Of a stretch of 50,000 nucleotides of DNA, positions 1 to 39,466 are shown in pieces (position 1 is the stretch's first letter; the number at the start of each line of letters is the position of its first letter). The notes below the pieces were generated by a model. The model made no database searches. It was not told the DNA's origin and was given only the letters and a program-made list of their open reading frames with translations. The stretch covers positions 1 to 50,000 of the forward strand of contig NW_027437482.1 of assembly GCF_964204645.1 (NCBI RefSeq), given 5' to 3'. A program made the position numbers and the translations under genes. Origin of the DNA: Tubulanus polymorphus (taxonomy: Eukaryota; Nemertea; Palaeonemertea; Tubulaniformes; Tubulanidae).

Positions 1-104
1 ATTGATACTCTGATTGGTTCCCCTAACCTATACCTCTAAACCTAACCCCGACCAGTGCCAGGAAAGCACGGAGATAGAGGGAAACCGAGAGCAATCGTCG
101 GTCC

Positions 105-190
105 GCCCAGGTAGCTCAATCGGTAGAGCAGTCGTCCGGCAAACGAAAGGTCCGGTGTTCGAGTCCCGGTCTAGGTGGTGGATTGCTTTT
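105..190 (+). other. tRNA-derived pol III head of the satellite monomer (representative, monomer 1)
   Basis: A canonical D-arm/A box (TAGCTCAATCGGTAGAGC) begins at 112. It is followed by an anticodon-like arm with a stem of about 4 bp and loop CCGGCAA (apparent anticodon GGC, Ala-like, but position 33 is C instead of T), and a B box (GTTCGAGTCCC) near 157-167. The acceptor stem does not pair: GCCCAGG at 105-111 has no complement after the T arm, and the T stem has mismatches. It therefore looks like a tRNA-derived promoter module and not a functional tRNA. A TTTT pol III stop lies at 187-190, giving a predicted transcript of about 85 nt. The same module recurs in every complete monomer, about 104 bp after each monomer start. 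Confidence 0.7.
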
Positions 191-346
191 CGGTATCCCT
201 AACTCTAATACCTTCCGGCAGGTGGAGTTAGCCGGCTTTCCCGCTGCCAGTGTCACAGTGGGTTCTGAAAAGATATCAGTTAATTACTCTCGATTAATTG
301 TGGTGGGTTAATCTGAAGAACACAAAAACATTAATTGATACTCTGA

Positions 347-395
347 TTGGTTCCCCTAACCTATACCTCTAAACCTAACCCCGACCAGTGCCAGG
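347..395 (+). repeat. PLE 3'-end-like, telomere-like C-rich block in the satellite (representative, monomer 2)
   Basis: This block (core CCCCTAACCTATACCTCT, then AAACCTAACC and ending GTGCCAGG) matches the end of unit A at 12664-12711, which has CCCCTAACCTCTATCTCT, AAACCTAACC and again GTGCCAGG. A second matching block (CCCGCTGCCAGTGTCACAG, 575 onward) corresponds to CCCGCTGCCCGTGCACTAG in the retroelement 3' UTR. The two blocks occur in the same order in both, separated by unrelated sequence. The satellite therefore carries the retroelement's presumptive 3' recognition region. Confidence 0.75.
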
Positions 396-8817: not shown

Positions 8818-10119
8818 GCGGCTTGCACCGAAGCAGTAACGGTGCAGCTGCACGCTGCCGCGGACGTCTGGATGGAGACAGTTTCGAAAGAGCTGACCAT
8901 CCATTACGCTGCCACATTTGTTCAGCTAATGGGTGATCCTCTGCCGGACTGTCTATCAGCACAGGATGTCGCCCTGACATGGGCCCGGAGGAATTTCGGC
9001 TCCCGTCTAAGCCCCGGAACGATCCGGCTTTTCAACATCGCGCTGGATTTGCGGTCGAAATTCCGCGGTCAGGCTCTGTCTGACAAACTCAGAAATGTCC
9101 TATCTAACCCACCTTCTTCCCCTTCTCATTTCAGGTCACACCACCAGGAGGCACCCACGGAACCGAAGATTCGTCCGCCGCCGAGACCGAGCCGGAAGAT
9201 TCGAAAGCCCGCGACGCCGAGGACGCCTGCACCAACCGCAGCCGCGCCCGCCGCGCCCACAGCGCCTCCTTCTTTTTCTGATTCCAGGTCACCGAGAAGC
9301 TACGCGGATGTCACCAGGACGCCACCAACCAGAATGGCGCCACCACCGAGAAGTCCGATGCCGACGCCGCCGCCGCCACCAAGAAGTACGACGCCACCGA
9401 GAAGTCCGACGCCGCCGCCTCGAAACCCGACGCCGCCGCCGCCGCAGAGAACGCCGACCGCACCAACCAGCAGTCCGACGCCGTCTCTCTCTTCTTCTCT
9501 TTCCAGCTCTCCGTCTCATTACAGGTCACCAGGGCGCCTACTGCCAGCGCGAAGTCCGACGCCAACACCGAGACCGATGGCGCCCCAGGAAGTTCGCCGT
9601 CATCCGAATACGGGTCGGAAGAAACAGGATTGGAGTCTGCCACCAACCCGGCGACCCATTCTGGTGATTGGTGACTCAAATCTGAGTAACATCACATCAA
9701 GCCGCCGTCCGGATGACGTCCAGATCGAGAGCTTCCCCGGCTGCAAGATAGCTCATCTCGCCGACCTGATCGATGCTGTACCGGAGCGCCGAGATCGCCC
9801 GGATACGGTGATCATCAGCGTCGGAATCAACAACCGCGACAACAACTTCGAAGCGACCGCCAAGAAGACCACACAGCGCCTGATCAACGCCGCAGTCAAG
9901 AAGTATCAGCACTCGTTCGTCCACTTCGTTCAACTGAACACGACCCGCGAACACCAGCAGTTCGCCCGGAAGTTCAACGAATTCCTCGAGATTCACGACG
10001 ACGTCACCGCGATACCACCCATCGATGATCGACGCTTCAGAGTTGTTGGAGACGGGATCCACTGGAACCGTGGTACAGCTAACACCCTGCTGGACCACTG
10101 GCTCAGTGGTTTAAACTAA
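8818..10119 (+). CDS. ORF1 of unit A, N-terminally truncated (residues 87-519), SGNH-like domain
   Basis: The frame keeps 433 of 519 codons: the last part of the helical N-terminal region, the Pro-rich linker and the complete SGNH/GDSL-like domain with GDSN and DGIHWN motifs. An upstream GTG in the satellite at 8764 keeps the frame open, but that is a chance fusion and no start codon is supported. It ends with the same slippery TTTAAAC (10110-10116) and stop (10117-10119) as the intact copies. Without the native promoter and first 86 codons it is probably not expressed as a normal product. Confidence 0.85.
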   Translation, partial: AACTEAVTVQLHAAADVWMETVSKELTIHYAATFVQLMGDPLPDCLSAQDVALTWARRNFGSRLSPGTIRLFNIALDLRSKFRGQALSDKLRNVLSNPPSSPSHFRSHHQEAPTEPKIRPPPRPSRKIRKPATPRTPAPTAAAPAAPTAPPSFSDSRSPRSYADVTRTPPTRMAPPPRSPMPTPPPPPRSTTPPRSPTPPPRNPTPPPPQRTPTAPTSSPTPSLSSSLSSSPSHYRSPGRLLPARSPTPTPRPMAPQEVRRHPNTGRKKQDWSLPPTRRPILVIGDSNLSNITSSRRPDDVQIESFPGCKIAHLADLIDAVPERRDRPDTVIISVGINNRDNNFEATAKKTTQRLINAAVKKYQHSFVHFVQLNTTREHQQFARKFNEFLEIHDDVTAIPPIDDRRFRVVGDGIHWNRGTANTLLDHWLSGLN

Positions 10120-10146
10120 GTATTAGTGAGACCAACGGGTCCACTA
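10110..10146 (+). promoter_or_regulatory. -1 frameshift signal, unit A
   Basis: Slippery TTTAAAC at 10110-10116, stop at 10117-10119 and stem-loop at 10124-10146, identical to unit B. Confidence 0.8.
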
Positions 10147-12696: not shown

Positions 12697-12953
12697 TTAG
12701 CCCGTGCCAGGTTTCCCTCGTAAATTATCTTAACTGATTAATTATTAATCATCAATCTATTTGCAGAATCATCCTCCGTCGCCTGAAGCAGAAACCCGCT
12801 CAGAGACAGAGTACAAAACAAACTCCAAGATCACAAGCTCCACAGGAATCATCAACCTTTTATCTTTTAATTAGTTCTCTCTGCTTTACTTTGAAAACTC
12901 AATCGAAATTCAGTAAGTAAGAAGACAGACCAAATATCAGAAACAGTTAGAAA

Positions 12954-12959
12954 AATAAA
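12954..12959 (+). terminator. Possible polyadenylation signal AATAAA
   Basis: AATAAA about 380 bp after the ORF2 stop of unit A. The equivalent in the second copy is at 35955-35960. It could set the 3' end of read-through transcripts from units A and F. Units joined by telomeric repeats lack it, so their RNA would have to end elsewhere or read into the next unit. A single hexamer in AT-rich DNA is weak evidence. Confidence 0.25.
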
Positions 12960-12969
12960 CAAAAGCGCG

Positions 12970-13015
12970 ATATCGGGAACCGAACCCTAACCGCTAGTAC
13001 AGACTGGTTGCCTGT
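12970..13015 (-). other. Degenerate tRNA-like relic 1
   Basis: On the minus strand a B-box-like GGGTTCGGTTCCCG lies directly after an A-box-like TAGCGGTTAG, with the middle of the tRNA missing. It looks like a deleted relative of the segment at 13193-13284, and the flanks (CTAGTAC...GACTGGTTGCC) are shared with that copy. Confidence 0.4.
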
Positions 13016-13192
13016 CCCAGGACGATAGAAACCGGTAACCAGTCCACCGCTATTATCTATTTCGAAAATATGCGTCAGCACTGAGATTATATCATAGAAA
13101 CACACGAAAAGTGTTAATTAATCTATTATAAATTTAGAAAGAAAGGGAATCTAGAATAGGTAAGAATATACTCAATTACTAAAAACGGCGCG

Positions 13193-13284
13193 CCTGATCG
13201 GGATTCGAACCCGCGGCACCCGAATTAAGCTCCGGAGAATACTCGGGAACCGTACCCGCCGCTCCGAAATTAACCGCTAGTACT
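13193..13284 (-). other. tRNA-like relic 2 (class II-like length)
   Basis: The minus strand reads A box (CTAGCGGTTAATTTCGGAGC), a long middle portion and a good B box/T arm (GCGGGTTCGAATCCCG), in about 92 nt. The length suggests a Leu/Ser-type tRNA origin, but I could not fold a full acceptor stem, so it is treated as a tRNA-derived repeat. The copy in the second 2.2 kb segment lies near 36192-36285. Confidence 0.45.
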
Positions 13285-13477
13285 GACGGGTTGCCGGTGC
13301 CCCGCGTTAGATACCGGTAACCGGTCCACCGCTCTTATTTATTTTGAAAATATGCGTCGGCACTAAGATTATATCGTAGAAACATCTGAAAAGTACTATT
13401 GTATCCGTCAAAGATTCGGAATTAAAAGGAATCCAGAATAGGTAAAAAACATTTGAAAAGAACTATTCAATTACTAA

Positions 13478-13580
13478 ACGGCGCCTGGTCGGGACTCGAA
13501 CCCGCGGCACCCTAATTAACCTCCGTTTAATCTATAACGTTCGGTCGGGGACCTAACCCGCTACGTCCTAATTAACTATT
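13478..13580 (-). other. tRNA-like relic 3
   Basis: A third minus-strand B box (GCGGGTTCGAGTCCCG) sits at 13488-13503 with a weak A-box-like GTAGCGGGTTAGG upstream on that strand. It is part of the same internal duplication that produced relics 1 and 2. The second copy lies near 36480-36583. Confidence 0.35.
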
Positions 13581-14693
13581 ATCGTACCCACGCGCCAACT
13601 CTTGGAGCATACTCTATATAGATCCGGGTGTCAAGTTTCAAATTTCTCTAAAACAGACAGTTTATTTTCGGATAACAATTCTAATGAGATCGCTCAAAAG
13701 TATTAGTAGCTATATTCAAAAACCGCACTATAGGTTGTAGAAGTATAAGAAGTTTATAGGATAAATAATAGTCCACGGACATCAATCACTGTTTACAAGT
13801 CACTCATAATTAGTGACCGATCGGCCACCTGCGCCTCTTGACTAATTATCCGACTCAATTCTATACAAAATCGCAGTTACGACGCCTTCAAACTCATCAG
13901 TTTTTTTCAAAGAACACAGCCCAATATTCCCGATTCAAAAAGAGTTTTATATCACGTATATATTTCAACCTTCGGATTAAAGAAGAGATCATAGTGTTTT
14001 TGAACCACTCAAACTACGCAAGCTTAAACCGATTTACTGAATACCCGCGCTCCGGTCTGAATATATTTGTCACATGTTCAAGTTCACATAGCTTTACTCG
14101 ATCCTAATAACTCTAAATAAGCGTAGTTTATCTAATAGAATTATATTTAAGAACTTAGAATTAAAACAGACGTATTAGTAAGACATTTCTATCAAAACTC
14201 GCCACCCATAATTAGGGCTAATTAACCACCCGCGCTCACTCAGTAATTTAGATCTTACGGGTTATAACTTCCTACTAAATCGCCGACGCCGCGCTGTCTA
14301 ATTCATCCAATTTTCGGTAGAATACCGCGTAGATATTTCAAAATCCGCTCTTAAAAGCTTTAGAATACGGAGAAAACTTGATTAACTAAGAACCGGATTT
14401 CACCATTTACGACTATTTAGTATACACGCGTATATCGGAATACGCCTCGGCCGCGCACCGCTAATTAACGCGTCTAAACTAATTAGGAATTAAGCAATTT
14501 TGAAACTGAACTCGGACATATTTCGAACATTCCGGTTCACGTATATTAATAATACATATTCTAGATTTCTCTTTATAGAAAACACTTTGAGTATTTATTA
14601 GGTTATATCGAAATAAACTTTTCAATTCTATATTAGACACGCCGTTCTTTAGATCTTTAGAACTATACATCAAAGCAAACTATTCAACAGCTA

Positions 14694-14820
14694 GATCAAG
14701 GGCCATAATTAGTGCTGTTTTCTAGTCACTCTGGATCAAAGGCATAATTAGTCAGACCCCTAGTTTGTCTATTAGCTTGATCACAGAAGTACAATTAGTC
14801 TAGATCACAAGGTCTCATAT
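14694..14820 (+). promoter_or_regulatory. Three imperfect ~40-45 bp repeats upstream of the PLE promoter
   Basis: GATCA followed by ATAATTAGT or CAATTAGT recurs at 14694, 14734 and 14779, with a fourth GATCAC at 14803. The cluster lies about 50-180 bp before the TATA box and is conserved at 37696-37822 before unit G. Its position suggests binding sites for an activator; the factor is unknown. Confidence 0.45.
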
Positions 14821-14870
14821 GGTCACTTAACTTCTAACTCGAATACTGTTCACTTGTTGCGCGCTGCGTG

Positions 14871-14901
14871 TATAAAAACCCGTGTCTAATCCTAGTTCAG
14901 C
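14871..14901 (+). promoter_or_regulatory. TATA + initiator promoter of unit B
   Basis: TATAAAA at 14871-14877 lies 28 bp before an initiator-like TTCAGC whose A (14899) would be +1. The ATG of ORF1 follows 3 nt later at 14902. Units C-F, which lack this promoter, start at precisely this ATG after telomeric repeats. The predicted RNA 5' end therefore coincides with the retrotransposed 5' end. An almost leaderless mRNA is unusual and suggests that capping or translation follows a special route, or that a true start lies a few bases away. Confidence 0.65.
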
Positions 14902-16461
14902 ATGATTCCTGCACTGACACTGACGAAGGCAACCTCGCCGAAATATCTGTCAATGGAGCGATCTACTCGAAAGAAGAAACGACCACCAGCTGAGAAGACC
15001 AGCAAGGGCGGAGGACGCCCTGAGCGACACCAGCAACCCGGGATGTCGCCGAAAAATTACTATAGAGCTCTTCAAGTGGCGCACCACCTTGCCCAGTTGA
15101 GCTCTGGTCCGAAAGCGATTCGGAGGAAGAAGGACCATCTGAAGATGTTCCTGCGGCCGGCGGCTTGCACCGAAGCAGTAACGGTGCAGCTGCACGCTGC
15201 CGCGGACGTCTGGATGGAGACAGTTTCGAAAGAGCGGACCATCCATTACGCTGCCACATTTGTTCAGCTAATGGGTGATCCTCTGCCGGACTGTCTATCA
15301 GCACAGGATGTCGCCCTGACATGGGCCCGGAGGAATTTCGGCTCCCGTCTAAGCCCCGGAACGATCCGGCTTTTCAACATCGCGCTGGATTTGCGGTCGA
15401 AATTCCGCGGTCAGGCTCTGTCTGACAAACTCAGAAATGTCCTATCTAACCCACCTTCTTCCCCTTCTCATTTCAGGTCACACCACCAGGAGGCACCCAC
15501 GGAACCGAAGATTCGTCCGCCGCCGAGACCGAGCCGGAAGATTCGAAAGCCCGCGACGCCGAGGACGCCTGCACCAACCGCAGCCGCGCCCGCCGCGCCC
15601 ACAGCGCCTCCTTCTTTTTCTGATTCCAGGTCACCGAGAAGCTACGCGGATGTCACCAGGACGCCACCAACCAGAATGGCGCCACCACCGAGAAGTCCGA
15701 TGCCGACGCCGCCGCCGCCACCAAGAAGTACGACGCCACCGAGAAGTCCGACGCCGCCGCCTCGAAACCCGACGCCGCCGCCGCCGCAGAGAACGCCGAC
15801 CGCACCAACCAGCAGTCCGACGCCGTCTCTCTCTTCTTCTCTTTCCAGCTCTCCGTCTCATTACAGGTCACCAGGGCGCCTACTGCCAGCGCGAAGTCCG
15901 ACGCCAACACCGAGACCGATGGCGCCCCAGGAAGTTCGCCGTCATCCGAATACGGGTCGGAAGAAACAGGATTGGAGTCTGCCACCAACCCGGCGACCCA
16001 TTCTGGTGATTGGTGACTCAAATCTGAGTAACATCACATCAAGCCGCCGTCCGGATGACGTCCAGATCGAGAGCTTCCCCGGCTGCAAGATAGCTCATCT
16101 CGCCGACCTGATCGATGCTGTACCGGAGCGCCGAGATCGCCCGGATACGGTGATCATCAGCGTCGGAATCAACAACCGCGACAACAACTTCGAAGCGACC
16201 GCCAAGAAGACCACACAGCGCCTGATCAACGCCGCAGTCAAGAAGTATCAGCACTCGTTCGTCCACTTCGTTCAACTGAACACGACCCGCGAACACCAGC
16301 AGTTCGCCCGGAAGTTCAACGAATTCCTCGAGATTCACGACGACGTCACCGCGATACCACCCATCGATGATCGACGCTTCAGAGTTGTTGGAGACGGGAT
16401 CCACTGGAACCGTGGTACAGCTAACACCCTGCTGGACCACTGGCTCAGTGGTTTAAACTAA
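14902..16461 (+). CDS. ORF1 of unit B: basic N-terminus, Pro-rich linker, SGNH/GDSL-hydrolase-like domain
   Basis: 519 residues. Residues 1-85 are basic (KKKRPP at 24-29, a likely nuclear signal). Residues 50-180 are predicted helical, with a long helix near 90-123 and a further helix near 134-145 that recall a histone fold. Residues 185-345 are Pro/Ser/Arg-rich and probably disordered. Residues 365-519 form an SGNH-like domain: block I GDSN (S373), Gly394, block III GINN (N424) and block V DGIHWN (D498, H501), so the catalytic triad is intact. Esterase-like domains occur in ORF1 of some CR1 LINEs and in rotifer Terminons; their role in retrotransposition is unclear. The ATG lies 3 nt after the predicted TSS. 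The frame ends in a slippery site at the stop. Copy-specific: Arg112 where the other copies have Leu. Confidence 0.92.
   Translation: MIPALTLTKATSPKYLSMERSTRKKKRPPAEKTSKGGGRPERHQQPGMSPKNYYRALQVAHHLAQLSSGPKAIRRKKDHLKMFLRPAACTEAVTVQLHAAADVWMETVSKERTIHYAATFVQLMGDPLPDCLSAQDVALTWARRNFGSRLSPGTIRLFNIALDLRSKFRGQALSDKLRNVLSNPPSSPSHFRSHHQEAPTEPKIRPPPRPSRKIRKPATPRTPAPTAAAPAAPTAPPSFSDSRSPRSYADVTRTPPTRMAPPPRSPMPTPPPPPRSTTPPRSPTPPPRNPTPPPPQRTPTAPTSSPTPSLSSSLSSSPSHYRSPGRLLPARSPTPTPRPMAPQEVRRHPNTGRKKQDWSLPPTRRPILVIGDSNLSNITSSRRPDDVQIESFPGCKIAHLADLIDAVPERRDRPDTVIISVGINNRDNNFEATAKKTTQRLINAAVKKYQHSFVHFVQLNTTREHQQFARKFNEFLEIHDDVTAIPPIDDRRFRVVGDGIHWNRGTANTLLDHWLSGLN
15463..15866 (+). other. In-frame 3'-splice-site-like tracts in ORF1 (unit B)
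   Basis: Polypyrimidine runs ending in CAG|GTC occur with AG at 15476, 15629 and 15866, plus a CAG at 15848. The same motif recurs in the ORF2 frame with AG at 16546 and 18478. In all five CAG|GTC cases the codon phase is the same (AGG coding Arg, before Ser). Some have branch-point-like CTAAC or TTAAC upstream. They could be splice acceptors, intron-loss relics, or a coding repeat for Ser-Arg peptides. Confidence 0.4.
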
Positions 16462-16488
16462 GTATTAGTGAGACCAACGGGTCCACTA
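16452..16488 (+). promoter_or_regulatory. Programmed -1 ribosomal frameshift signal (reference, unit B)
   Basis: Slippery heptamer T TTA AAC at 16452-16458 is in the ORF1 phase, and the ORF1 stop TAA follows at once (16459-16461). After a 7-nt spacer (16459-16465) comes a stem-loop: TAGTG (16466-16470), bulged A, GACC, loop AACG, GGTC, CACTA (to 16488), giving 9 base pairs. A possible pseudoknot or competing pairing exists between CCAA (16474-16477) and TTGG (16489-16492). A -1 slip puts the ribosome in the ORF2 frame, which is open from 16425 to its stop at 18915-18917. All seven copies keep the signal unchanged. The heptamer type is among the most efficient known -1 sites. Confidence 0.85.
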
Positions 16489-18917
16489 TTGGTGAGTTAA
16501 ATCAACCGGAATTAACCAATGCTTCTCTGATTTCTTCCATTTCCAGGTCCGACGAACACGAAGAACCGGCACCAAACCAAGCGCGACGCGATCCGGTCAC
16601 CGCTCTCGGGAGCCCGGTGGTCAACCTCACACGTTCACTCCGCCTAAGTCCGGCGCAACATCAGCTACTCCGAAAGGGCCTCACTTATTGCCCGACTCCA
16701 AAAATCGGTTCTGATGCCGCCGCGACCGAGCGCACCAAGGGAGTGTGCCGATTCAACCGGCTAGTGAAACTCGACCATCACTTCCGAGACAAACCGGACC
16801 GCGAGGCTCCGCGTTTCCGTCTGCCCAGCAGTTGGGCTCCGGATGAAATAGAACCAGTAATCGCCGGGTTCTGCAACGACGCGCACGAATTGGCTCAACA
16901 AACCAGGGATACGCGTCGCGTAAATGATAACCTCACTAAACAGGAACGCGAAGCCCTCCAGCAGCTGCGTGACAACACTAATATTGTCATCAAAGCCGCC
17001 GATAAGGGTTCCGCTACGGTTATCATGGACCGCGACGACTACGTCCACGAAGCCATGCGCCAACTAGCCGATCTCGAGTATTATCAGCCGCTGCAGCAAC
17101 CGATCTTCGAACAGACCGGGGAAGAAATTCGCGAAATCATCGAAAATATGGCTCGACGAAAAATCATCCCGCTAAAAACCGCCGAATATCTATTACCGCC
17201 CGATAATCCGAAACAGAGGCAGTTCTATCTGCTTCCCAAAATCCATAAAGAACGCGAGAAGTGGACGGTACCCGATCGCGTACCGCCGGGGAGACCGATC
17301 GTCTCCGACTGCGGCTCCGAAACCTACGAAATTTCGGAATGGATCGACTACTATTTGCAGCCGATCGCCCGCGGTCACCCGTCGTACGTCAAAGATACCA
17401 ACCACTTTCTAGATATTTTGGCCGGTAAACAATTTAGCGCCGATGCGTTACTCGTCACCATGGACATCGATTCGCTCTACACCAACATCCCCCACGAAGA
17501 GGGTATCGCCAGCATCCGACAAGCTCTCCGAGATAACCCGAACCCGGGACGCCCGGATGCCGAGCTGCTGAAACTACTCGAAATCAGCCTGAAGAAAAAT
17601 GACTTTAACTTTAACGAAAACACATATTTACAGGTAAAAGGTACCGCAATGGGTAAGCGTTTTGCTCCTTCTTATGCCAATATCTTTGTAGCCGAATGGG
17701 AAAAAGAAGGTCTGTCCAGAAGCGAACTCCAACCATCGCTATACGCTCGGTTCATCGACGACATCTACATAGTTTGGGAACACGGCCGCGAAACGTTGAT
17801 GCAATTCATCGACGTCCTACAAACAGTGAGCCGATCCATCAAACTCAAGTTCGAAATCAGCGACACCAGCGTCAACTTCCTGGACGTAACCACTTTCAAA
17901 GGCCCGCGATTCGAGACAAGTGGCACAGTAGACACCAAAGTCTACTTCAAACCAACCGATTCGCATCAATTACTACATCGATCCTCGTTTCACCCTAAAC
18001 ACACATTTTCCGGTATAGTTAAAAGTCAAATTCTCCGGTTCCGGCGCATCTGCAATAACGATTCGGACTTACACGCAGCGTCCGGAACCGTCCTTAAAGT
18101 ACTCAGAGGTCGTGGCTACAAAGACCGCGAACTGCGACACATCAAAAGCCAAGCTCTACGGCACCACGCCGAACGAGATCTACGAGAACAACAACGGGCC
18201 GACGAACCGCCGAAAAAGCGTTTACCGCTTATCTTACCTCACTCCGAAGCCAACCGAACCCTAGCCCGTAACATCCGAACCAGATTTACGGAACTGGCTA
18301 CGGCCACCGGCCGGTCTGACGAGGTAACCACGGTCACCGCCTACACCAAGCACAAGAGTCTCAAAGATCTCCTAACTTCGTCGCAGCTCAAACCCACGGA
18401 GCCACCCCCTCCCCGAGTCCCCTCTTCACCGCATCGTAACAGAAATACTTCCGTTGTTTCCAATTCTTCTATTTCCAGGTCTACTCAAAGAACTCCGTCA
18501 ACCCGACGTCGAGGCACCGAGAAATGCAGAACACCGAGATGTCGTACGTGTCCACTCGTCCGAGAAACAACCGTTTGCCGCAGCCACAACAAAATGCACG
18601 CGATCCGCAGCACAATTAATTGCGCGACCCGTGAAATTGTATACTGCATCGAATGCACCAAGTGCAACATGCTGTACGTCGGCCAAACCGGAATGTCTCT
18701 ACGAGAACGCGTCACTCATCACGTCTCACGCATCAGAACGAAGAATTCGACTCCAGTCTCGGACCACTTCAACCAAGTCGACCACACCCGCGAACACTTT
18801 CGGGTGTACGGTCTCCAACACCTACCAGGCTCCACGAGACCGATCCGCGAAGCAGCCGAACAAGACTGGATACGACGACTCGACACGAACACGCCCCGAG
18901 GCATGAACGTCCCGTAG
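16458..18917 (+). CDS. ORF2 of unit B: Penelope-like reverse transcriptase + GIY-YIG endonuclease
   Basis: Entered by -1 slip at 16458; 819 codons plus stop. There is no ATG before one inside the conserved IVIKAADKG...VIMDRDDY motif, so independent ATG initiation is unlikely. Residues are numbered here from the GTG at 16617. Features: PLE N-terminal motif 122-142; FYLLPKIHK (203-211) and RPIVS (226-230); RT motif A with D283/D285 in MDIDSLYTNI; motif B KGTAMGKRFAPSYAN (341-354); motif C FIDD (379-382); FLDV (421-424). A Cys cluster follows (C637, C642, C645, C654, C669, C677, C680, C683). The GIY-YIG domain has VYCIEC (675-680), YVGQT (687-691), R696/R698, E748 and terminal GMN. All catalytic positions are intact. 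It should copy the element RNA and nick target DNA in the nucleus. Confidence 0.95.
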   Translation, partial: LSISETNGSTIGELNQPELTNASLISSISRSDEHEEPAPNQARRDPVTALGSPVVNLTRSLRLSPAQHQLLRKGLTYCPTPKIGSDAAATERTKGVCRFNRLVKLDHHFRDKPDREAPRFRLPSSWAPDEIEPVIAGFCNDAHELAQQTRDTRRVNDNLTKQEREALQQLRDNTNIVIKAADKGSATVIMDRDDYVHEAMRQLADLEYYQPLQQPIFEQTGEEIREIIENMARRKIIPLKTAEYLLPPDNPKQRQFYLLPKIHKEREKWTVPDRVPPGRPIVSDCGSETYEISEWIDYYLQPIARGHPSYVKDTNHFLDILAGKQFSADALLVTMDIDSLYTNIPHEEGIASIRQALRDNPNPGRPDAELLKLLEISLKKNDFNFNENTYLQVKGTAMGKRFAPSYANIFVAEWEKEGLSRSELQPSLYARFIDDIYIVWEHGRETLMQFIDVLQTVSRSIKLKFEISDTSVNFLDVTTFKGPRFETSGTVDTKVYFKPTDSHQLLHRSSFHPKHTFSGIVKSQILRFRRICNNDSDLHAASGTVLKVLRGRGYKDRELRHIKSQALRHHAERDLREQQRADEPPKKRLPLILPHSEANRTLARNIRTRFTELATATGRSDEVTTVTAYTKHKSLKDLLTSSQLKPTEPPPPRVPSSPHRNRNTSVVSNSSISRSTQRTPSTRRRGTEKCRTPRCRTCPLVRETTVCRSHNKMHAIRSTINCATREIVYCIECTKCNMLYVGQTGMSLRERVTHHVSRIRTKNSTPVSDHFNQVDHTREHFRVYGLQHLPGSTRPIREAAEQDWIRRLDTNTPRGMNVP

Positions 18918-19031
18918 ACCGCCTCACTACAACAATTAACTCTCACTACTTTTTTACAGGGATAACCCGCTGCCCGTGCACTAGTGGGGTCTCCAAACCT
19001 TCGGTTTGGTCCCCTAACCTCTATCTCTAAA

Positions 19032-19063
19032 CCTAACCCTAACCCTAACCCTAACCCTAACCC
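19032..19063 (+). repeat. Telomeric CCCTAA tract between units B and C
   Basis: Five perfect CCCTAA-type units follow the C-rich end of unit B, with no mismatch. This is the longest telomeric tract in the window. Confidence 0.95.
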
Positions 19064-19097
19064 TTTGGTCCCCTAACCTCTATCTCTAAACCTAACC
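19064..19097 (+). mobile_element. 34-bp remnant of a PLE 3' end
   Basis: TTTGGTCCCCTAACCTCTAT plus the rest of the terminus to AAACCTAACC repeats the last 34 bases of a unit. It is embedded between telomeric repeats and followed by the same 13-bp telomeric spacer (19098-19110) found at every other unit joint. It is best read as an extremely 5'-truncated copy added to, or inserted in, telomeric DNA. Confidence 0.8.
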
Positions 19098-19110
19098 CTA
19101 ACCCTAACCC

Positions 19111-20670
19111 ATGATTCCTGCACTGACACTGACGAAGGCAACCTCGCCGAAATATCTGTCAATGGAGCGATCTACTCGAAAGAAGAAACGACCACCAGCT
19201 GAGAAGACCAGCAAGGGCGGAGGACGCCCTGAGCGACACCAGCAACCCGGGATGTCGCCGAAAAATTACTATAGAGCTCTTCAAGTGGCGCACCACCTTG
19301 CCCAGTTGAGCTCTGGTCCGAAAGCGATTCGGAGGAAGAAGGACCATCTGAAGATGTTCCTGCGGCCGGCGGCTTGCACCGAAGCAGTAACGGTGCAGCT
19401 GCACGCTGCCGCGGACGTCTGGATGGAGACAGTTTCGAAAGAGCTGACCATCCATTACGCTGCCACATTTGTTCAGCTAATGGGTGATCCTCTGCCGGAC
19501 TGTCTATCAGCACAGGATGTCGCCCTGACATGGGCCCGGAGGAATTTCGGCTCCCGTCTGAGCCCCGGAACGATCCGGCTTTTCAACATCGCGCTGGATT
19601 TGCGGTCGAAATTCCGCGGTCAGGCTCTGTCTGACAAACTCAGAAATGTCCTATCTAACCCACCTTCTTCCCCTTCTCATTTCAGGTCACACCACCAGGA
19701 GGCACCCACGGAACCGAAGATTCGTCCGCCGCCGAGACCGAGCCGGAAGATTCGAAAGCCCGCGACGCCGAGGACGCCTGCACCAACCGCAGCCGCGCCC
19801 GCCGCGCCCACAGCGCCTCCTTCTTTTTCTGATTCCAGGTCACCGAGAAGCTACGCGGATGTCACCAGGACGCCACCAACCAGAATGGCGCCACCACCGA
19901 GAAGTCCGATGCCGACGCCGCCGCCGCCACCAAGAAGTCCGACGCCACCGAGAAGTCCGACGCCGCCGCCTCGAAACCCGACGCCGCCGCCGCCGCAGAG
20001 AACGCCGACCGCACCAACCAGCAGTCCGACGCCGTCTCTCTCTTCTTCTCTTTCCAGCTCTCCGTCTCATTACAGGTCACCAGGGCGCCTACTGCCAGCG
20101 CGAAGTCCGACGCCAACACCGAGACCGATGGCGCCCCAGGAAGTTCGCCGTCATCCGAATACGGGTCGGAAGAAACAGGATTGGAGTCTGCCACCAACCC
20201 GGCGACCCATTCTGGTGATTGGTGACTCAAATCTGAGTAACATCACATCAAGCCGCCGTCCGGATGACGTCCAGATCGAGAGCTTCCCCGGCTGCAAGAT
20301 AGCTCATCTCGCCGACCTGATCGATGCTGTACCGGAGCGCCGAGATCGCCCGGATACGGTGATCATCAGCGTCGGAATCAACAACCGCGACAACAACTTC
20401 GAAGCGACCGCCAAGAAGACCACACAGCGCCTGATCAACGCCGCAGTCAAGAAGTATCAGCACTCGTTCGTCCACTTCGTTCAACTCAACACGACCCGCG
20501 AACACCAGCAGTTCGCCCGGAAGTTCAACGAATTCCTCGAGATTCACGACGACGTCACCGCGATACCACCCATCGATGATCGACGCTTCAGAGTTGTTGG
20601 AGACGGGATCCACTGGAACCGTGGTACAGCTAACACCCTGCTGGACCACTGGCTCAGTGGTTTAAACTAA
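19111..20670 (+). CDS. ORF1 of unit C (SGNH-like, 519 aa)
   Basis: Intact and equivalent to unit B, with Leu112, Ser-Pro at 276-277, Lys435 and Ile-His at 478-479. The GDSN and DGIHWN catalytic motifs are unchanged. It has no upstream TATA box, so expression would require read-through from unit B or a cryptic start in the preceding unit. Confidence 0.92.
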   Translation: MIPALTLTKATSPKYLSMERSTRKKKRPPAEKTSKGGGRPERHQQPGMSPKNYYRALQVAHHLAQLSSGPKAIRRKKDHLKMFLRPAACTEAVTVQLHAAADVWMETVSKELTIHYAATFVQLMGDPLPDCLSAQDVALTWARRNFGSRLSPGTIRLFNIALDLRSKFRGQALSDKLRNVLSNPPSSPSHFRSHHQEAPTEPKIRPPPRPSRKIRKPATPRTPAPTAAAPAAPTAPPSFSDSRSPRSYADVTRTPPTRMAPPPRSPMPTPPPPPRSPTPPRSPTPPPRNPTPPPPQRTPTAPTSSPTPSLSSSLSSSPSHYRSPGRLLPARSPTPTPRPMAPQEVRRHPNTGRKKQDWSLPPTRRPILVIGDSNLSNITSSRRPDDVQIESFPGCKIAHLADLIDAVPERRDRPDTVIISVGINNRDNNFEATAKKTTQRLINAAVKKYQHSFVHFVQLNTTREHQQFARKFNEFLEIHDDVTAIPPIDDRRFRVVGDGIHWNRGTANTLLDHWLSGLN

Positions 20671-20697
20671 GTATTAGTGAGACCAACGGGTCCACTA
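20661..20697 (+). promoter_or_regulatory. -1 frameshift signal, unit C
   Basis: TTTAAAC at 20661-20667 and stem-loop at 20675-20697, unchanged from unit B. Confidence 0.82.
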
Positions 20698-23240: not shown

Positions 23241-23260
23241 CCTAACCCTAACCCTAACCC
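23241..23260 (+). repeat. Telomeric joint between units C and D
   Basis: CCTAACC of unit C continues as CTAACCCTAACCC, then the ATG of unit D. The spacer is exactly the 13 bp seen at D-E and E-F. Confidence 0.93.
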
Positions 23261-24820
23261 ATGATTCCTGCACTGACACTGACGAAGGCAACCTCGCCGA
23301 AATATCTGTCAATGGAGCGATCTACTCGAAAGAAGAAACGACCACCAGCTGAGAAGACCAGCAAGGGCGGAGGACGCCCTGAGCGACACCAGCAACCCGG
23401 GATGTCGCCGAAAAATTACTATAGAGCTCTTCAAGTGGCGCACCACCTTGCCCAGTTGAGCTCTGGTCCGAAAGCGATTCGGAGGAAGAAGGACCATCTG
23501 AAGATGTTCCTGCGGCCGGCGGCTTGCACCGAAGCAGTAACGGTGCAGCTGCACGCTGCCGCGGACGTCTGGATGGAGACAGTTTCGAAAGAGCTGACCA
23601 TCCATTACGCTGCCACATTTGTTCAGCTAATGGGTGATCCTCTGCCGGACTGTCTATCAGCACAGGATGTCGCCCTGACATGGGCCCGGAGGAATTTCGG
23701 CTCCCGTCTGAGCCCCGGAACGATCCGGCTTTTCAACATCGCGCTGGATTTGCGGTCGAAATTCCGCGGTCAGGCTCTGTCTGACAAACTCAGAAATGTC
23801 CTATCTAACCCACCTTCTTCCCCTTCTCATTTCAGGTCACACCACCAGGAGGCACCCACGGAACCGAAGATTCGTCCGCCGCCGAGACCGAGCCGGAAGA
23901 TTCGAAAGCCCGCGACGCCGAGGACGCCTGCACCAACCGCAGCCGCGCCCGCCGCGCCCACAGCGCCTCCTTCTTTTTCTGATTCCAGGTCACCGAGAAG
24001 CTACGCGGATGTCACCAGGACGCCACCAACCAGAATGGCGCCACCACCGAGAAGTCCGATGCCGACGCCGCCGCCGCCACCAAGAAGTCCGACGCCACCG
24101 AGAAGTCCGACGCCGCCGCCTCGAAACCCGACGCCGCCGCCGCCGCAGAGAACGCCGACCGCACCAACCAGCAGTCCGACGCCGTCTCTCTCTTCTTCTC
24201 TTTCCAGCTCTCCGTCTCATTACAGGTCACCAGGGCGCCTACTGCCAGCGCGAAGTCCGACGCCAACACCGAGACCGATGGCGCCCCAGGAAGTTCGCCG
24301 TCATCCGAATACGGGTCGGAAGAAACAGGATTGGAGTCTGCCACCAACCCGGCGACCCATTCTGGTGATTGGTGACTCAAATCTGAGTAACATCACATCA
24401 AGCCGCCGTCCGGATGACGTCCAGATCGAGAGCTTCCCCGGCTGCAAGATAGCTCATCTCGCCGACCTGATCGATGCTGTACCGGAGCGCCGAGATCGCC
24501 CGGATACGGTGATCATCAGCGTCGGAATCAACAACCGCGACAACAACTTCGAAGCGACCGCCAGGAAGACCACACAGCGCCTGATCAACGCCGCAGTCAA
24601 GAAGTATCAGCACTCGTTCGTCCACTTCGTTCAACTCAACACGACCCGCGAACACCAGCAGTTCGCCCGGAAGTTCAACGAATTCCTCGAGAATAACGAC
24701 GACGTCACCGCGATACCACCCATCGATGATCGACGCTTCAGAGTTGTTGGAGACGGGATCCACTGGAACCGTGGTACAGCTAACACCCTGCTGGACCACT
24801 GGCTCAGTGGTTTAAACTAA
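23261..24820 (+). CDS. ORF1 of unit D (SGNH-like, 519 aa)
   Basis: Intact. It differs from unit C by Arg435 and Asn-Asn at 478-479; both lie between SGNH blocks III and V and spare the catalytic residues. The Asn-Asn type is shared with F and G but not with adjacent E. Confidence 0.92.
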   Translation: MIPALTLTKATSPKYLSMERSTRKKKRPPAEKTSKGGGRPERHQQPGMSPKNYYRALQVAHHLAQLSSGPKAIRRKKDHLKMFLRPAACTEAVTVQLHAAADVWMETVSKELTIHYAATFVQLMGDPLPDCLSAQDVALTWARRNFGSRLSPGTIRLFNIALDLRSKFRGQALSDKLRNVLSNPPSSPSHFRSHHQEAPTEPKIRPPPRPSRKIRKPATPRTPAPTAAAPAAPTAPPSFSDSRSPRSYADVTRTPPTRMAPPPRSPMPTPPPPPRSPTPPRSPTPPPRNPTPPPPQRTPTAPTSSPTPSLSSSLSSSPSHYRSPGRLLPARSPTPTPRPMAPQEVRRHPNTGRKKQDWSLPPTRRPILVIGDSNLSNITSSRRPDDVQIESFPGCKIAHLADLIDAVPERRDRPDTVIISVGINNRDNNFEATARKTTQRLINAAVKKYQHSFVHFVQLNTTREHQQFARKFNEFLENNDDVTAIPPIDDRRFRVVGDGIHWNRGTANTLLDHWLSGLN

Positions 24821-24847
24821 GTATTAGTGAGACCAACGGGTCCACTA
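24811..24847 (+). promoter_or_regulatory. -1 frameshift signal, unit D
   Basis: TTTAAAC at 24811-24817 and stem-loop at 24825-24847, unchanged. Confidence 0.82.
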
Positions 24848-27390: not shown

Positions 27391-27410
27391 CCTAACCCTA
27401 ACCCTAACCC
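27391..27410 (+). repeat. Telomeric joint between units D and E
   Basis: Same CCTAACC + 13-bp CTAACCCTAACCC spacer as the C-D joint. Confidence 0.93.
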
Positions 27411-28970
27411 ATGATTCCTGCACTGACACTGACGAAGGCAACCTCGCCGAAATATCTGTCAATGGAGCGATCTACTCGAAAGAAGAAACGACCACCAGCT
27501 GAGAAGACCAGCAAGGGCGGAGGACGCCCTGAGCGACACCAGCAACCCGGGATGTCGCCGAAAAATTACTATAGAGCTCTTCAAGTGGCGCACCACCTTG
27601 CCCAGTTGAGCTCTGGTCCGAAAGCGATTCGGAGGAAGAAGGACCATCTGAAGATGTTCCTGCGGCCGGCGGCTTGCACCGAAGCAGTAACGGTGCAGCT
27701 GCACGCTGCCGCGGACGTCTGGATGGAGACAGTTTCGAAAGAGCTGACCATCCATTACGCTGCCACATTTGTTCAGCTAATGGGTGATCCTCTGCCGGAC
27801 TGTCTATCAGCACAGGATGTCGCCCTGACATGGGCCCGGAGGAATTTCGGCTCCCGTCTGAGCCCCGGAACGATCCGGCTTTTCAACATCGCGCTGGATT
27901 TGCGGTCGAAATTCCGCGGTCAGGCTCTGTCTGACAAACTCAGAAATGTCCTATCTAACCCACCTTCTTCCCCTTCTCATTTCAGGTCACACCACCAGGA
28001 GGCACCCACGGAACCGAAGATTCGTCCGCCGCCGAGACCGAGCCGGAAGATTCGAAAGCCCGCGACGCCGAGGACGCCTGCACCAACCGCAGCCGCGCCC
28101 GCCGCGCCCACAGCGCCTCCTTCTTTTTCTGATTCCAGGTCACCGAGAAGCTACGCGGATGTCACCAGGACGCCACCAACCAGAATGGCGCCACCACCGA
28201 GAAGTCCGATGCCGACGCCGCCGCCGCCACCAAGAAGTCCGACGCCACCGAGAAGTCCGACGCCGCCGCCTCGAAACCCGACGCCGCCGCCGCCGCAGAG
28301 AACGCCGACCGCACCAACCAGCAGTCCGACGCCGTCTCTCTCTTCTTCTCTTTCCAGCTCTCCGTCTCATTACAGGTCACCAGGGCGCCTACTGCCAGCG
28401 CGAAGTCCGACGCCAACACCGAGACCGATGGCGCCCCAGGAAGTTCGCCGTCATCCGAATACGGGTCGGAAGAAACAGGATTGGAGTCTGCCACCAACCC
28501 GGCGACCCATTCTGGTGATTGGTGACTCAAATCTGAGTAACATCACATCAAGCCGCCGTCCGGATGACGTCCAGATCGAGAGCTTCCCCGGCTGCAAGAT
28601 AGCTCATCTCGCCGACCTGATCGATGCTGTACCGGAGCGCCGAGATCGCCCGGATACGGTGATCATCAGCGTCGGAATCAACAACCGCGACAACAACTTC
28701 GAAGCGACCGCCAGGAAGACCACACAGCGCCTGATCAACGCCGCAGTCAAGAAGTATCAGCACTCGTTCGTCCACTTCGTTCAACTCAACACGACCCGCG
28801 AACACCAGCAGTTCGCCCGGAAGTTCAACGAATTCCTCGAGATTCACGACGACGTCACCGCGATACCACCCATCGATGATCGACGCTTCAGAGTTGTTGG
28901 AGACGGGATCCACTGGAACCGTGGTACAGCTAACACCCTGCTGGACCACTGGCTCAGTGGTTTAAACTAA
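27411..28970 (+). CDS. ORF1 of unit E (SGNH-like, 519 aa)
   Basis: Intact. Arg435 as in D, F and G, but Ile-His at 478-479 as in A-C. Confidence 0.92.
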   Translation: MIPALTLTKATSPKYLSMERSTRKKKRPPAEKTSKGGGRPERHQQPGMSPKNYYRALQVAHHLAQLSSGPKAIRRKKDHLKMFLRPAACTEAVTVQLHAAADVWMETVSKELTIHYAATFVQLMGDPLPDCLSAQDVALTWARRNFGSRLSPGTIRLFNIALDLRSKFRGQALSDKLRNVLSNPPSSPSHFRSHHQEAPTEPKIRPPPRPSRKIRKPATPRTPAPTAAAPAAPTAPPSFSDSRSPRSYADVTRTPPTRMAPPPRSPMPTPPPPPRSPTPPRSPTPPPRNPTPPPPQRTPTAPTSSPTPSLSSSLSSSPSHYRSPGRLLPARSPTPTPRPMAPQEVRRHPNTGRKKQDWSLPPTRRPILVIGDSNLSNITSSRRPDDVQIESFPGCKIAHLADLIDAVPERRDRPDTVIISVGINNRDNNFEATARKTTQRLINAAVKKYQHSFVHFVQLNTTREHQQFARKFNEFLEIHDDVTAIPPIDDRRFRVVGDGIHWNRGTANTLLDHWLSGLN

Positions 28971-28997
28971 GTATTAGTGAGACCAACGGGTCCACTA
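28961..28997 (+). promoter_or_regulatory. -1 frameshift signal, unit E
   Basis: TTTAAAC at 28961-28967 and stem-loop at 28975-28997, unchanged. Confidence 0.82.
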
Positions 28998-31540: not shown

Positions 31541-31560
31541 CCTAACCCTAACCCTAACCC
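31541..31560 (+). repeat. Telomeric joint between units E and F
   Basis: Same 13-bp telomeric spacer as at C-D and D-E. Confidence 0.93.
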
Positions 31561-33120
31561 ATGATTCCTGCACTGACACTGACGAAGGCAACCTCGCCGA
31601 AATATCTGTCAATGGAGCGATCTACTCGAAAGAAGAAACGACCACCAGCTGAGAAGACCAGCAAGGGCGGAGGACGCCCTGAGCGACACCAGCAACCCGG
31701 GATGTCGCCGAAAAATTACTATAGAGCTCTTCAAGTGGCGCACCACCTTGCCCAGTTGAGCTCTGGTCCGAAAGCGATTCGGAGGAAGAAGGACCATCTG
31801 AAGATGTTCCTGCGGCCGGCGGCTTGCACCGAAGCAGTAACGGTGCAGCTGCACGCTGCCGCGGACGTCTGGATGGAGACAGTTTCGAAAGAGCTGACCA
31901 TCCATTACGCTGCCACATTTGTTCAGCTAATGGGTGATCCTCTGCCGGACTGTCTATCAGCACAGGATGTCGCCCTGACATGGGCCCGGAGGAATTTCGG
32001 CTCCCGTCTGAGCCCCGGAACGATCCGGCTTTTCAACATCGCGCTGGATTTGCGGTCGAAATTCCGCGGTCAGGCTCTGTCTGACAAACTCAGAAATGTC
32101 CTATCTAACCCACCTTCTTCCCCTTCTCATTTCAGGTCACACCACCAGGAGGCACCCACGGAACCGAAGATTCGTCCGCCGCCGAGACCGAGCCGGAAGA
32201 TTCGAAAGCCCGCGACGCCGAGGACGCCTGCACCAACCGCAGCCGCGCCCGCCGCGCCCACAGCGCCTCCTTCTTTTTCTGATTCCAGGTCACCGAGAAG
32301 CTACGCGGATGTCACCAGGACGCCACCAACCAGAATGGCGCCACCACCGAGAAGTCCGATGCCGACGCCGCCGCCGCCACCAAGAAGTCCGACGCCACCG
32401 AGAAGTCCGACGCCGCCGCCTCGAAACCCGACGCCGCCGCCGCCGCAGAGAACGCCGACCGCACCAACCAGCAGTCCGACGCCGTCTCTCTCTTCTTCTC
32501 TTTCCAGCTCTCCGTCTCATTACAGGTCACCAGGGCGCCTACTGCCAGCGCGAAGTCCGACGCCAACACCGAGACCGATGGCGCCCCAGGAAGTTCGCCG
32601 TCATCCGAATACGGGTCGGAAGAAACAGGATTGGAGTCTGCCACCAACCCGGCGACCCATTCTGGTGATTGGTGACTCAAATCTGAGTAACATCACATCA
32701 AGCCGCCGTCCGGATGACGTCCAGATCGAGAGCTTCCCCGGCTGCAAGATAGCTCATCTCGCCGACCTGATCGATGCTGTACCGGAGCGCCGAGATCGCC
32801 CGGATACGGTGATCATCAGCGTCGGAATCAACAACCGCGACAACAACTTCGAAGCGACCGCCAGGAAGACCACACAGCGCCTGATCAACGCCGCAGTCAA
32901 GAAGTATCAGCACTCGTTCGTCCACTTCGTTCAACTCAACACGACCCGCGAACACCAGCAGTTCGCCCGGAAGTTCAACGAATTCCTCGAGAATAACGAC
33001 GACGTCACCGCGATACCACCCATCGATGATCGACGCTTCAGAGTTGTTGGAGACGGGATCCACTGGAACCGTGGTACAGCTAACACCCTGCTGGACCACT
33101 GGCTCAGTGGTTTAAACTAA
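31561..33120 (+). CDS. ORF1 of unit F (SGNH-like, 519 aa)
   Basis: Intact. Arg435 and Asn-Asn at 478-479; protein equal to unit D as far as I can see. Confidence 0.92.
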   Translation: MIPALTLTKATSPKYLSMERSTRKKKRPPAEKTSKGGGRPERHQQPGMSPKNYYRALQVAHHLAQLSSGPKAIRRKKDHLKMFLRPAACTEAVTVQLHAAADVWMETVSKELTIHYAATFVQLMGDPLPDCLSAQDVALTWARRNFGSRLSPGTIRLFNIALDLRSKFRGQALSDKLRNVLSNPPSSPSHFRSHHQEAPTEPKIRPPPRPSRKIRKPATPRTPAPTAAAPAAPTAPPSFSDSRSPRSYADVTRTPPTRMAPPPRSPMPTPPPPPRSPTPPRSPTPPPRNPTPPPPQRTPTAPTSSPTPSLSSSLSSSPSHYRSPGRLLPARSPTPTPRPMAPQEVRRHPNTGRKKQDWSLPPTRRPILVIGDSNLSNITSSRRPDDVQIESFPGCKIAHLADLIDAVPERRDRPDTVIISVGINNRDNNFEATARKTTQRLINAAVKKYQHSFVHFVQLNTTREHQQFARKFNEFLENNDDVTAIPPIDDRRFRVVGDGIHWNRGTANTLLDHWLSGLN

Positions 33121-37903: not shown

Positions 37904-39466
37904 ATGATTCCTGCACTGACACTGACGAAGGCAACCTCGCCGAAATATCTGTCAATGGAGCGATCTACTCGAAAGAAGAAACGACAACCAGCTGAGAAGA
38001 CCAGCAAGGGCGGAGGACGCCCTGAGCGACACCAGCAACCCGGGATGTCGCCGAAAACGTATTATAGAGCTCTTCAAGTGGCGCACCACCTTGCCCAGTT
38101 GAGCTCTGGTCCGAAAGCGATTCGGAGGAAGAAGGACCATCTGAAGATGTTCCTGCGGCCGGCGGCTTGCACCGAAGCAGTAACGGTGCAGCTGCACGCT
38201 GCCGCGGACGTCTGGATGGAGACAGTTTCGAAAGAGCTGACCATCCATTACGCTGCCACATTTGTTGAGCTAATGGGTGATCCTCTGCCGGACTGTCTAT
38301 CAGCACAGGATGTCGCCCTGACATGGGCCCGGAGGAATTTCGGCTCCCGTCTGAGCCCCGGAACGATCCGGCTTTTCAACATCGCGCTGGATTTGCGGTC
38401 GAAATTCCGCGGTCAGGCTCTGTCTGACAAACTCAGAAATGTCCTATCTAACCCACCTTCTTCCCCTTCTCATTTCAGGTCACACCACCAGGAGGCACCC
38501 ACGGAGCCGAAGATTCGTCCGCCGCCGAGACCGAGCCGGAAGATTCGAAAGCCCGCGACGCCGAGGACGCCTGCACCAACCGCAGCCGCGCCCGCCGCGC
38601 CCACAGCGCCTCCTTCTTTTTCTGATTCCAGGTCACCGAGAAGCTACGCGGATGTCACCAGGACGCCACCACCCAGAATGGCGCCACCACCGAGAAGTCC
38701 GATGCCGACGCCGCCGCCGCCACCAAGAAGTCCGACGCCACCGAGAAGTCCGACGCCGCCGCCTCGAAACCCGACGCCGCCGCCGCCGCCGCAGAGAACG
38801 CCGACCGCACCAACCAGCAGTCCGACGCCGTCTCTCTCTTCTTCTCTTTCCAGCTCTCCGTCTCATTACAGGTCACCAGGGCGCCTACTGCCAGCGCGAA
38901 GTCCGACGCCAACACCGAGACCGATGGCGCCCCAGGAAGTTCGCCGTCATCCGAATACGGGTCGGAAGAAACAGGATTGGAGTCTGCCACCAACCCGGCG
39001 ACCCATTCTGGTGATTGGTGACTCAAATCTGAGTAACATCACATCAAGCCGCCGTCCGGATGACGTCCAGATCGAGAGCTTCCCCGGCTGCAAGATAGCT
39101 CATCTCGCCGACCTGATCGATGCTGTACCGGAGCGCCGAGATCGCCCGGATACGGTGATCATCAGCGTCGGAATCAACAACCGCGACAACAACTTCGAAG
39201 CGACCGCCAGGAAGACCACACAGCGCCTGATCAACGCCGCAGTCAAGAAGTATCAGCACTCGTTCGTCCACTTCGTTCAACTCAACACGACCCGCGAACA
39301 CCAGCAGTTCGCCCGGAAGTTCAACGAATTCCTCGAGAATAACGACGACGTCACCGCGATACCACCCATCGATGATCGACGCTTCAGAGTTGTTGGAGAC
39401 GGGATCCACTGGAACCGTGGTACAGCTAACACCCTGCTGGACCACTGGCTCAGTGGTTTAAACTAA
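37904..39466 (+). CDS. ORF1 of unit G (SGNH-like, 520 aa)
   Basis: Intact. Differences from unit D: Gln28 for Pro, Thr52 for Asn, Glu122 for Gln, Pro257 for Thr, and one additional Pro in the proline run near 291-296. Catalytic SGNH residues are kept, shifted by one. Confidence 0.92.
   Translation: MIPALTLTKATSPKYLSMERSTRKKKRQPAEKTSKGGGRPERHQQPGMSPKTYYRALQVAHHLAQLSSGPKAIRRKKDHLKMFLRPAACTEAVTVQLHAAADVWMETVSKELTIHYAATFVELMGDPLPDCLSAQDVALTWARRNFGSRLSPGTIRLFNIALDLRSKFRGQALSDKLRNVLSNPPSSPSHFRSHHQEAPTEPKIRPPPRPSRKIRKPATPRTPAPTAAAPAAPTAPPSFSDSRSPRSYADVTRTPPPRMAPPPRSPMPTPPPPPRSPTPPRSPTPPPRNPTPPPPPQRTPTAPTSSPTPSLSSSLSSSPSHYRSPGRLLPARSPTPTPRPMAPQEVRRHPNTGRKKQDWSLPPTRRPILVIGDSNLSNITSSRRPDDVQIESFPGCKIAHLADLIDAVPERRDRPDTVIISVGINNRDNNFEATARKTTQRLINAAVKKYQHSFVHFVQLNTTREHQQFARKFNEFLENNDDVTAIPPIDDRRFRVVGDGIHWNRGTANTLLDHWLSGLN

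Follow-up and report, generated by a model that had tools for sequence, protein, structure and literature searches.

How is a reverse transcriptase (RT) produced when its open reading frame (ORF) overlaps the preceding one in the -1 frame? This question is raised by a Penelope-like element (PLE) that lies in seven head-to-tail copies in the stretch analysed here, the first 50 kb of contig C65 (hereafter the window) from the genome of the ribbon worm Tubulanus polymorphus (267.8 Mb, 77 contigs). In the second copy, ORF1 (14902..16461; all parts of the element given here are on the + strand) encodes 519 amino acids from an ATG, with a proline-rich middle and a C-terminal SGNH/GDSL-like domain, and ORF2 (16425..18917, stop codon 18915-18917) encodes a PLE reverse transcriptase and a GIY-YIG endonuclease (EN). 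An earlier note on this DNA had proposed a frameshift signal between them. Judged from the sequence, we consider it probable (about 0.87) that programmed -1 frameshifting yields a gag-pol-like ORF1-RT-EN fusion in this telomeric PLE.

ORF1 of the second copy ends with GGT TTA AAC TAA, so that the slippery heptamer T TTA AAC (16452..16458) stands in the ORF1 phase and the stop codon TAA (16459..16461) follows directly; this part of the proposal (16452-16461) was confirmed. Also as proposed, the -1 frame opens at 16425; it runs on past the heptamer to 18917. Seven nucleotides (nt) past the heptamer lies a stem-loop (16466..16488), described in the earlier note as a 9-base-pair (bp) stem and found here as 5 bp, a bulged A, 4 bp and a 4-nt loop. 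It has a folding energy of -9.9 kcal/mol (40-nt fold) and a z score of -1.73 (48 nt), and ranks among the top 1.1-1.8% of the element's windows at 25 nt, at about 10% at 35 nt and at 13-47% at 50-70 nt. Retroviral gag-pol and coronavirus ORF1a/1b use a heptamer of the type X XXY YYZ, a short spacer, a stem and a nearby 0-frame stop, and both U UUA AAC and A AAA AAC are known viral shift sites. In the element of the window, which we call family 1, heptamer and phase are the strong part of the signal and the stem is the moderate one. The predicted fusion has the proposed length of 1338 residues (519 + 819, from the coordinates). Its junction had been given as Gly-Phe/Leu-Lys-Leu-Ser; with the usual two-tRNA (transfer RNA) slippage it would instead read SGLN-LSISET, and the tryptic peptide predicted across it is GTANTLLDHWLSGLNLSISETNGSTIGELNQPELTNASLISSISR. 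Two other mechanisms were rejected at this site: stop readthrough, as the ORF1 frame hits another stop soon after 16461, and polymerase slippage, as there is no long run at the family-1 site.

The heptamer had also been said to be common to all seven copies. Indeed, it is present at all seven positions, but each of the other units matches copy 2 with 99.5-99.9% identity, and their agreement is therefore little evidence of constraint. The genome offers more copies. A search pattern in which the heptamer was left free (up to 3 mismatches, so that more diverged copies would escape) matched 61 places, of which 60 belonged to family 1 and one was off-target, and the reversed control pattern matched 2. 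A slippery heptamer was kept at 58 of these 60 places (56 TTTAAAC and 2 TTTAAAT). The TTTAAAT places, on C10, are still slippery and silent in both frames; the two non-slippery places read TCTAAAC (C9) and TTAAAAC (C8, with one flank mismatch).

Selection was counted over the stretch 15900-18917 in 26 distinct copies of full segment length that have the GGTTTAAA[CT]TAAGTAT junction and fewer than 60 differences, with decayed copies excluded. The ORF2 body carries 26 synonymous and 12 nonsynonymous variants (P = 5e-7), while the other frames gave P values of 0.96 and 1; ORF2 is under purifying selection. In the linker from the heptamer to the RT block, the ORF2 frame has 5 synonymous and 3 nonsynonymous variants (P = 0.06), and the other two frames gave no signal. 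Since single-base frameshifts are common in old copies of transposable elements, the -1 overlap could be imagined as a product of decay or of the assembly. However, 48 of the 54 scored family-1 ORF2 matches (926 candidates) are open over all 830 codons, and the layout recurs in a second family at two places and in a fish-like contig, which makes this explanation hardly credible.

The earlier note had suggested looking for relatives that keep both ORFs and lack the heptamer. In both relatives with readable DNA the layout is -1 and an in-phase canonical heptamer follows a conserved His-Trp at the corresponding place, one of the two having a different heptamer; they support the frameshift interpretation. 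Family 2 comes from the same genome (contig C4, copies L033 and L032) and is 49% identical to family 1 in the RT and 35% in ORF1. In L033, ORF1 (615-2585, 656 amino acids) overlaps ORF2 (2513-4975, 820 amino acids; -1 frame) and ends with GTA AAA AAC GAA TAG (...HWLETVKNE-stop), with the heptamer A AAA AAC at 2573; L032 has the same site and a broken ORF1. The family-2 pattern had exact matches at these two places only; with 3 mismatches it also hit four places that look unrelated (reversed control: 1).

The other relative, L031, is an 11,018-bp contig from an Epulopiscium single-cell assembly (LJHE01000041.1) with two head-to-tail copies, counted here as one. Epulopiscium bacteria live in surgeonfish; the contig is evidently a eukaryotic contaminant, plausibly from the fish host. 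It was the sole relative from one scan of genome contigs, and scans of viral contigs with ORF2, the RT alignment and the ORF1 alignment gave no relatives. Its ORF1 (1290-3140) and ORF2 (3056-5353, in -1) are 25% (ORF1) and 40% (RT) identical to family 1, and ORF1 ends with TAT TTA AAC TTC AAA GCC CCT TAA (...HWISYLNFKAP-stop), with T TTA AAC at 3119.

Thus the heptamer type changes at one place in three diverged families. As family 2 has Lys-Asn instead of Leu-Asn, the class of heptamer is kept and not the encoded residues, and with an ORF1 identity of only 25-35% one would expect drift in a site that is not used. The stem, which the earlier note had also proposed to compare among relatives, has support in two of the three families: it is moderate in family 1, strong in the fish-like element (6 nt past the heptamer, where 35-nt windows are among the element's top 0.02-0.3%) and weak in family 2, where a 4-bp hairpin lies 5 nt past the heptamer and the z score of -2.09 (63 nt) is largely due to a more distant hairpin.

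Protein homologs of ORF1 (17 found, 5 and then 12 more) extend the comparison, with the heptamers inferred from residues only. Seven end with LN-stop (P0124, P0126, P0127, P0128, P0129, P0130 and P0133), and the other ends are VN (P0125), LNL (P0134, P0137), LNM (P0135), LNY (P0138), LNLN (P0132), FLE (P0136), IEF (P0131) and longer tails (P0123, P0139). Counting 15 non-redundant homologs (P0128 and P0129 were dropped as near-duplicates of P0126), Leu-Asn occurs within the last 6 residues of 10, compared to 18 occurrences over the 2385 positions counted in the same domain. Heptamer-compatible residues in the last 6 places were likewise found in 10 of the 15, with 4.2 expected from the same domain (P = 0.0017). 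Because of shared ancestry, these statistics are supportive only.

How easily would such a site arise by chance? Among the 508 of 520 ORF1 codons covered in family 1 (from 14938; the first 12 codons after the ATG were excluded), the heptamer is the only canonical one in phase. It is unique within the examined ORF1 in two of the three families, family 2 having a second one at 1478. Codon shuffling placed a heptamer in the overlap with P = 0.012 in family 1 (12-codon overlap) and 0.070 and 0.075 in the other two families, and within the last 7 codons with P = 0.0066, 0.017 and 0.015. The family-1 chance of 1.2%, taken alone, is not decisive. Without regard to phase, the near-palindrome TTTAAAC is not rare, with 14 matches on both strands of the window (8.8 expected), a number reached by 11 of 100 shuffles.

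These figures bear on the possibility that ORF2 starts by itself, at a codon other than AUG or by re-initiation following ORF1 termination, and that the heptamer is there by chance or is kept by the Leu-Asn of ORF1. A chance of 1-7% per family leaves some room for this, and with Leu-Asn common at the ORF1 end a constraint on the protein could keep TTA AAC. On the other side, family 2 has replaced Leu-Asn by Lys-Asn and its heptamer is still canonical, the overlap is -1 in all three families, and the open ORF2 frame has no Met before residue 201, 208 or 392, respectively, which is past the N-terminal conserved block. An ORF2 product with this block therefore needs upstream coding sequence or a non-AUG start. 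Since Met is rare throughout these ORF2s (0.5-1.2%), its late appearance is only modest statistical evidence. Altogether, we regard an independent start of ORF2 as very unlikely.

Several observations weigh against frameshifting. No canonical heptamer fits the ends of five of the 15 non-redundant ORF1 homologs. Since the families are related by descent, their P values are not independent and a product of them is only a guide. The family-1 stem is ordinary in windows of 50-70 nt, its terminal pair is lost at 6 of the 60 family-1 places, and one of the TTTAAAT copies also has a broken stem pair; the near stem of family 2 has only 4 bp, and the 60-nt fold of the fish-like element reaches a z score of only -0.63 against shuffles. 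The end of ORF1 showed no significant selection in the 26 copies (7 synonymous and 9 nonsynonymous variants, P = 0.15). Finally, the unit has its best splice donor and its best acceptor 34-88 nt past the heptamer, and for one decayed copy an NCBI protein model is consistent with a predicted splice into ORF2.

The last two points would speak for a spliceosomal intron that joins the frames, or that removes most of ORF1 so that the RT comes from spliced RNA. A PLE with a spliceosomal intron has been described (in passages of PMC3846280). In the window, the donor GTGAGT (16492) and the acceptor (16546) sit just past the stem and bound a 55-nt intron-like stretch, GTGAGT...TTTCCAG (16492..16546), and a comparable position in family 2 holds GTAAGT and a pyrimidine-rich AG. 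The NCBI model is P0003 (LOC141902624, T. polymorphus): its residues 3-590 are encoded with 100% identity at the copy L035 on contig C1, and its first residues agree with a predicted exon, ATGGCAG, that is followed by GTAACT and spliced onto the ORF2 frame; L035 has an in-frame TAA. However, removal of the 55 nt would not join ORF1 to ORF2, as the upstream TAA stays and the phase is wrong. We also scored any ORF1 donor with any acceptor before the RT block in three length classes, using matrices from general knowledge, not trained on this species. The class that joins the frames was never the best: it reached 16.5 in family 1 (the other two 18.0 and 19.7), 15.8 in family 2 (12.3 and 17.5) and 6.1 in the fish-like element (7.8 and 8.8), where no acceptor above 2.4 bits lies between the opening of ORF2 and the RT block. 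Acceptor-like sites of 11-13 bits also occur elsewhere in ORF1 and ORF2, and the ORF2 frame is open through the junction region in all three families. Splicing is thus not favoured by the computed scores, which cover introns with a donor inside ORF1, and we consider it unlikely overall.

With programmed -1 frameshifting, the element would work as follows. Ribosomes would translate ORF1, and at U UUA AAC a fraction of them would slip back by one base with two tRNAs, probably helped by the stem 7 nt downstream, which may slow the ribosome. The slipped ribosomes would read on through ORF2 to give a minority product, the 1338-residue ORF1-RT-EN fusion, and the remaining ones would stop at UAA and release free ORF1 protein as the majority product. 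By analogy with Gag and with the ORF1 proteins of long interspersed nuclear elements (LINEs), ORF1 may package RNA. That ribosomes slip, how often they do so, what the stem contributes and what free ORF1 and the fusion do are all inferences.

The domain content characterizes the element further. The RT is of PLE type: RVT_1 scored above the cut-off, and many columns are invariant in the alignment with 12 proteins found by the ORF2 search; a PDB profile search with the RT gave no match at 0.001. The GIY-YIG endonuclease scored 21.1 bits in the window, just below the Pfam cut-off of 22.6, and 27 and 28.2 bits in the two relatives; its GIY-YIG columns are conserved in the alignment, and it is located at the C-terminus. 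For the SGNH/GDSL-like domain of ORF1, Pfam gave E values of 0.053 (window) and 1.8e-6 (family 2) and no match in the ORF1 of the fish-like element. When 16 ORF1 sequences were combined into a profile, it matched the ORF1-encoded protein in PDB 4c1b (E 2.5e-9), which we take to be the zebrafish L2 esterase. The window ORF1 thus resembles the ORF1 esterases of LINEs (L2 and CR1 clades), including the gag-like position; in contrast to these, it belongs to a PLE and ends at a putative -1 shift site.

Two side observations concern such domains. Seven of the ORF1 homologs (P0124, P0126, P0128-P0131 and P0133) have, besides the SGNH-type region, a second domain, PF08719 (presumably NADAR, an ADP-ribose-related domain), and one of them is named ribA/ribD-fused. 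Furthermore, locus L041 (C2:30790500-30797500, with an SGNH-type gene at C2:30792379) contains a standalone ORF (1565-2482) that has a PLE-ORF1-like SGNH-type domain and a repeat rich in glutamine; none of five PLE proteins gave an RT match in the 7 kb of the locus, and the ORF is possibly a domesticated ORF1.

The canonical EN+ PLEs (Penelope/Poseidon, such as PAc of Anolis) resemble the window element in having RT and GIY-YIG endonuclease and in forming head-to-tail tandem copies. They are described as having a single ORF with RT and EN (passages of PMC11167929 and PMC6431247), whereas the window element has two ORFs that overlap in -1, an ORF1 of SGNH type and 3' tails of telomere type. The hammerhead ribozyme of PAc overlaps the start of its ORF (in part of PMC11167929), and the window element has a hammerhead-like core, CTGACGA...GAAA, near the start of ORF1 (14920-14943), where Rfam scores no hammerhead. 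Similar cores (CTGANGA...GAAA) occur at or before the ORF1 start at 19129, 23279, 27429, 31579 and 37922, and the other seven matches of the motif search represent an unrelated place in ORF2. By eye, hammerhead-like cores were also seen in L031 (~6382-6408) and L033 (~593-607), with no Rfam match.

The Athena/terminon PLEs of rotifers share with the window element reverse-complement telomere repeats at the 3' ends, head-to-tail chains and 5' truncation, and they have GDSL domains as accessory ORFs; they are described as EN-deficient and up to 40 kb long (passages of PMC6431247). In the window element, by contrast, the RT ORF includes an endonuclease, and the GDSL-like domain lies in an ORF1 in gag position that overlaps the RT in -1. 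PLEs are described, larger terminons apart, as carrying RT and EN in a single ORF or as having two ORFs and no EN (in the same passages). Neither layout describes a PLE that has two ORFs in -1 overlap, an EN and a telomere-type tail. Degenerate CCCTAA-type repeats also end the fish-like element (L031, 1-240 and 5437-5679) despite its GIY-YIG endonuclease.

The 3' end of copy 2 leads into (CCCTAA)n telomere-type repeats (19003..19110), directly followed by the ATG of the next copy. The 3' ends of the elements face away from the left end of the contig, and the CCCTAA repeats are complementary to the G-strand of telomeres, as would be expected if the chromosome end primes reverse transcription. 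The remaining copies have these coordinates: copy 1 has its heptamer at 10110..10116 (ORF1 frame 8755-10119, ORF2 10083-12575), copy 3 at 20661..20667 (19108-20670, 20634-23126), copy 4 at 24811..24817 (23258-24820, 24784-27276), copy 5 at 28961..28967 (27408-28970, 28934-31426), copy 6 at 33111..33117 (31558-33120, 33084-35576) and copy 7 at 39457..39463 (37898-39466, 39430-41922). Copy 1, with element sequence from 8816, has an ORF1 truncated at its 5' end. The units had been predicted to be 4137 bp long; instead, the distances from heptamer to heptamer along the seven copies are 6342, 4209, 4150, 4150, 4150 and 6346 bp. Units of ~6.34 kb are those in which a 2.2-kb segment precedes ORF1 (12704-14901 and 35705-37903), and those of 4150 bp start at the ORF1 ATG after CCCTAACCC. 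The segment contains a TATA-box-like site (14871..14882, starting 31 bp upstream of the ORF1 ATG, and again at 37873). On contigs C54 and C4, adjacent heptamers are often 6.25-6.35 kb apart.

To the left of the PLE copies, the window begins with a tandem array (1-8816) of a 335-bp repeat in ~26.3 copies, with 26 tRNA matches by Rfam and none by ARAGORN. Part of the repeat is 81-88% like the telomere-type 3' end of the PLE over stretches of 26-54 bp, and the array looks like a PLE-tailed, tRNA-derived short interspersed nuclear element (SINE) amplified at the contig end. A further tRNA-derived SINE-like sequence, seen by eye and not among the Rfam matches, lies outside the array (48196-48490).

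We found no report of frameshifting in PLEs in the open-access literature, a scope outside which some central PLE papers lie. In the accessible sections of PMC3846280, PMC6431247, PMC5408684, PMC11167929, PMC3849965, PMC8504770 and PMC4465651, the word frameshift, where present, refers to decayed ORFs. The plan of heptamer, spacer, stem and stop is the one of viral -1 frameshifting; here its carrier is a PLE, a retroelement of another class, and it is read from the sequence. The element itself is an active-looking, telomere-addressed PLE with a gag-like ORF1 and a pol-like ORF2. Beyond T. polymorphus, we think it somewhat more probable than not that -1 frameshifting is how an entire clade of PLEs, those with an SGNH-type ORF1 in many animals and perhaps in other eukaryotes, produces its RT, that its heptamers (U UUA AAC, A AAA AAC and maybe others) have been interchanged over time, and that it combines telomere-type 3' ends with an endonuclease.

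The sequence signature HW-4-LN-stop can be used to find more such elements, and gene callers may miss or mis-splice their RT. PLEs share ancestry with telomerase and are the least understood class of eukaryotic retroelements (passages of PMC3846280 and PMC6431247). If our reading of the T. polymorphus element is true, PLEs would, like retroviruses, maintain a ratio between a gag-like protein and the polymerase, and an RT that extends chromosome ends would have an esterase-like domain protein in front of it. If frameshifting is used throughout the clade, PLEs, the third class of eukaryotic retroelements, would have a gag-pol-like ratio control of their own.

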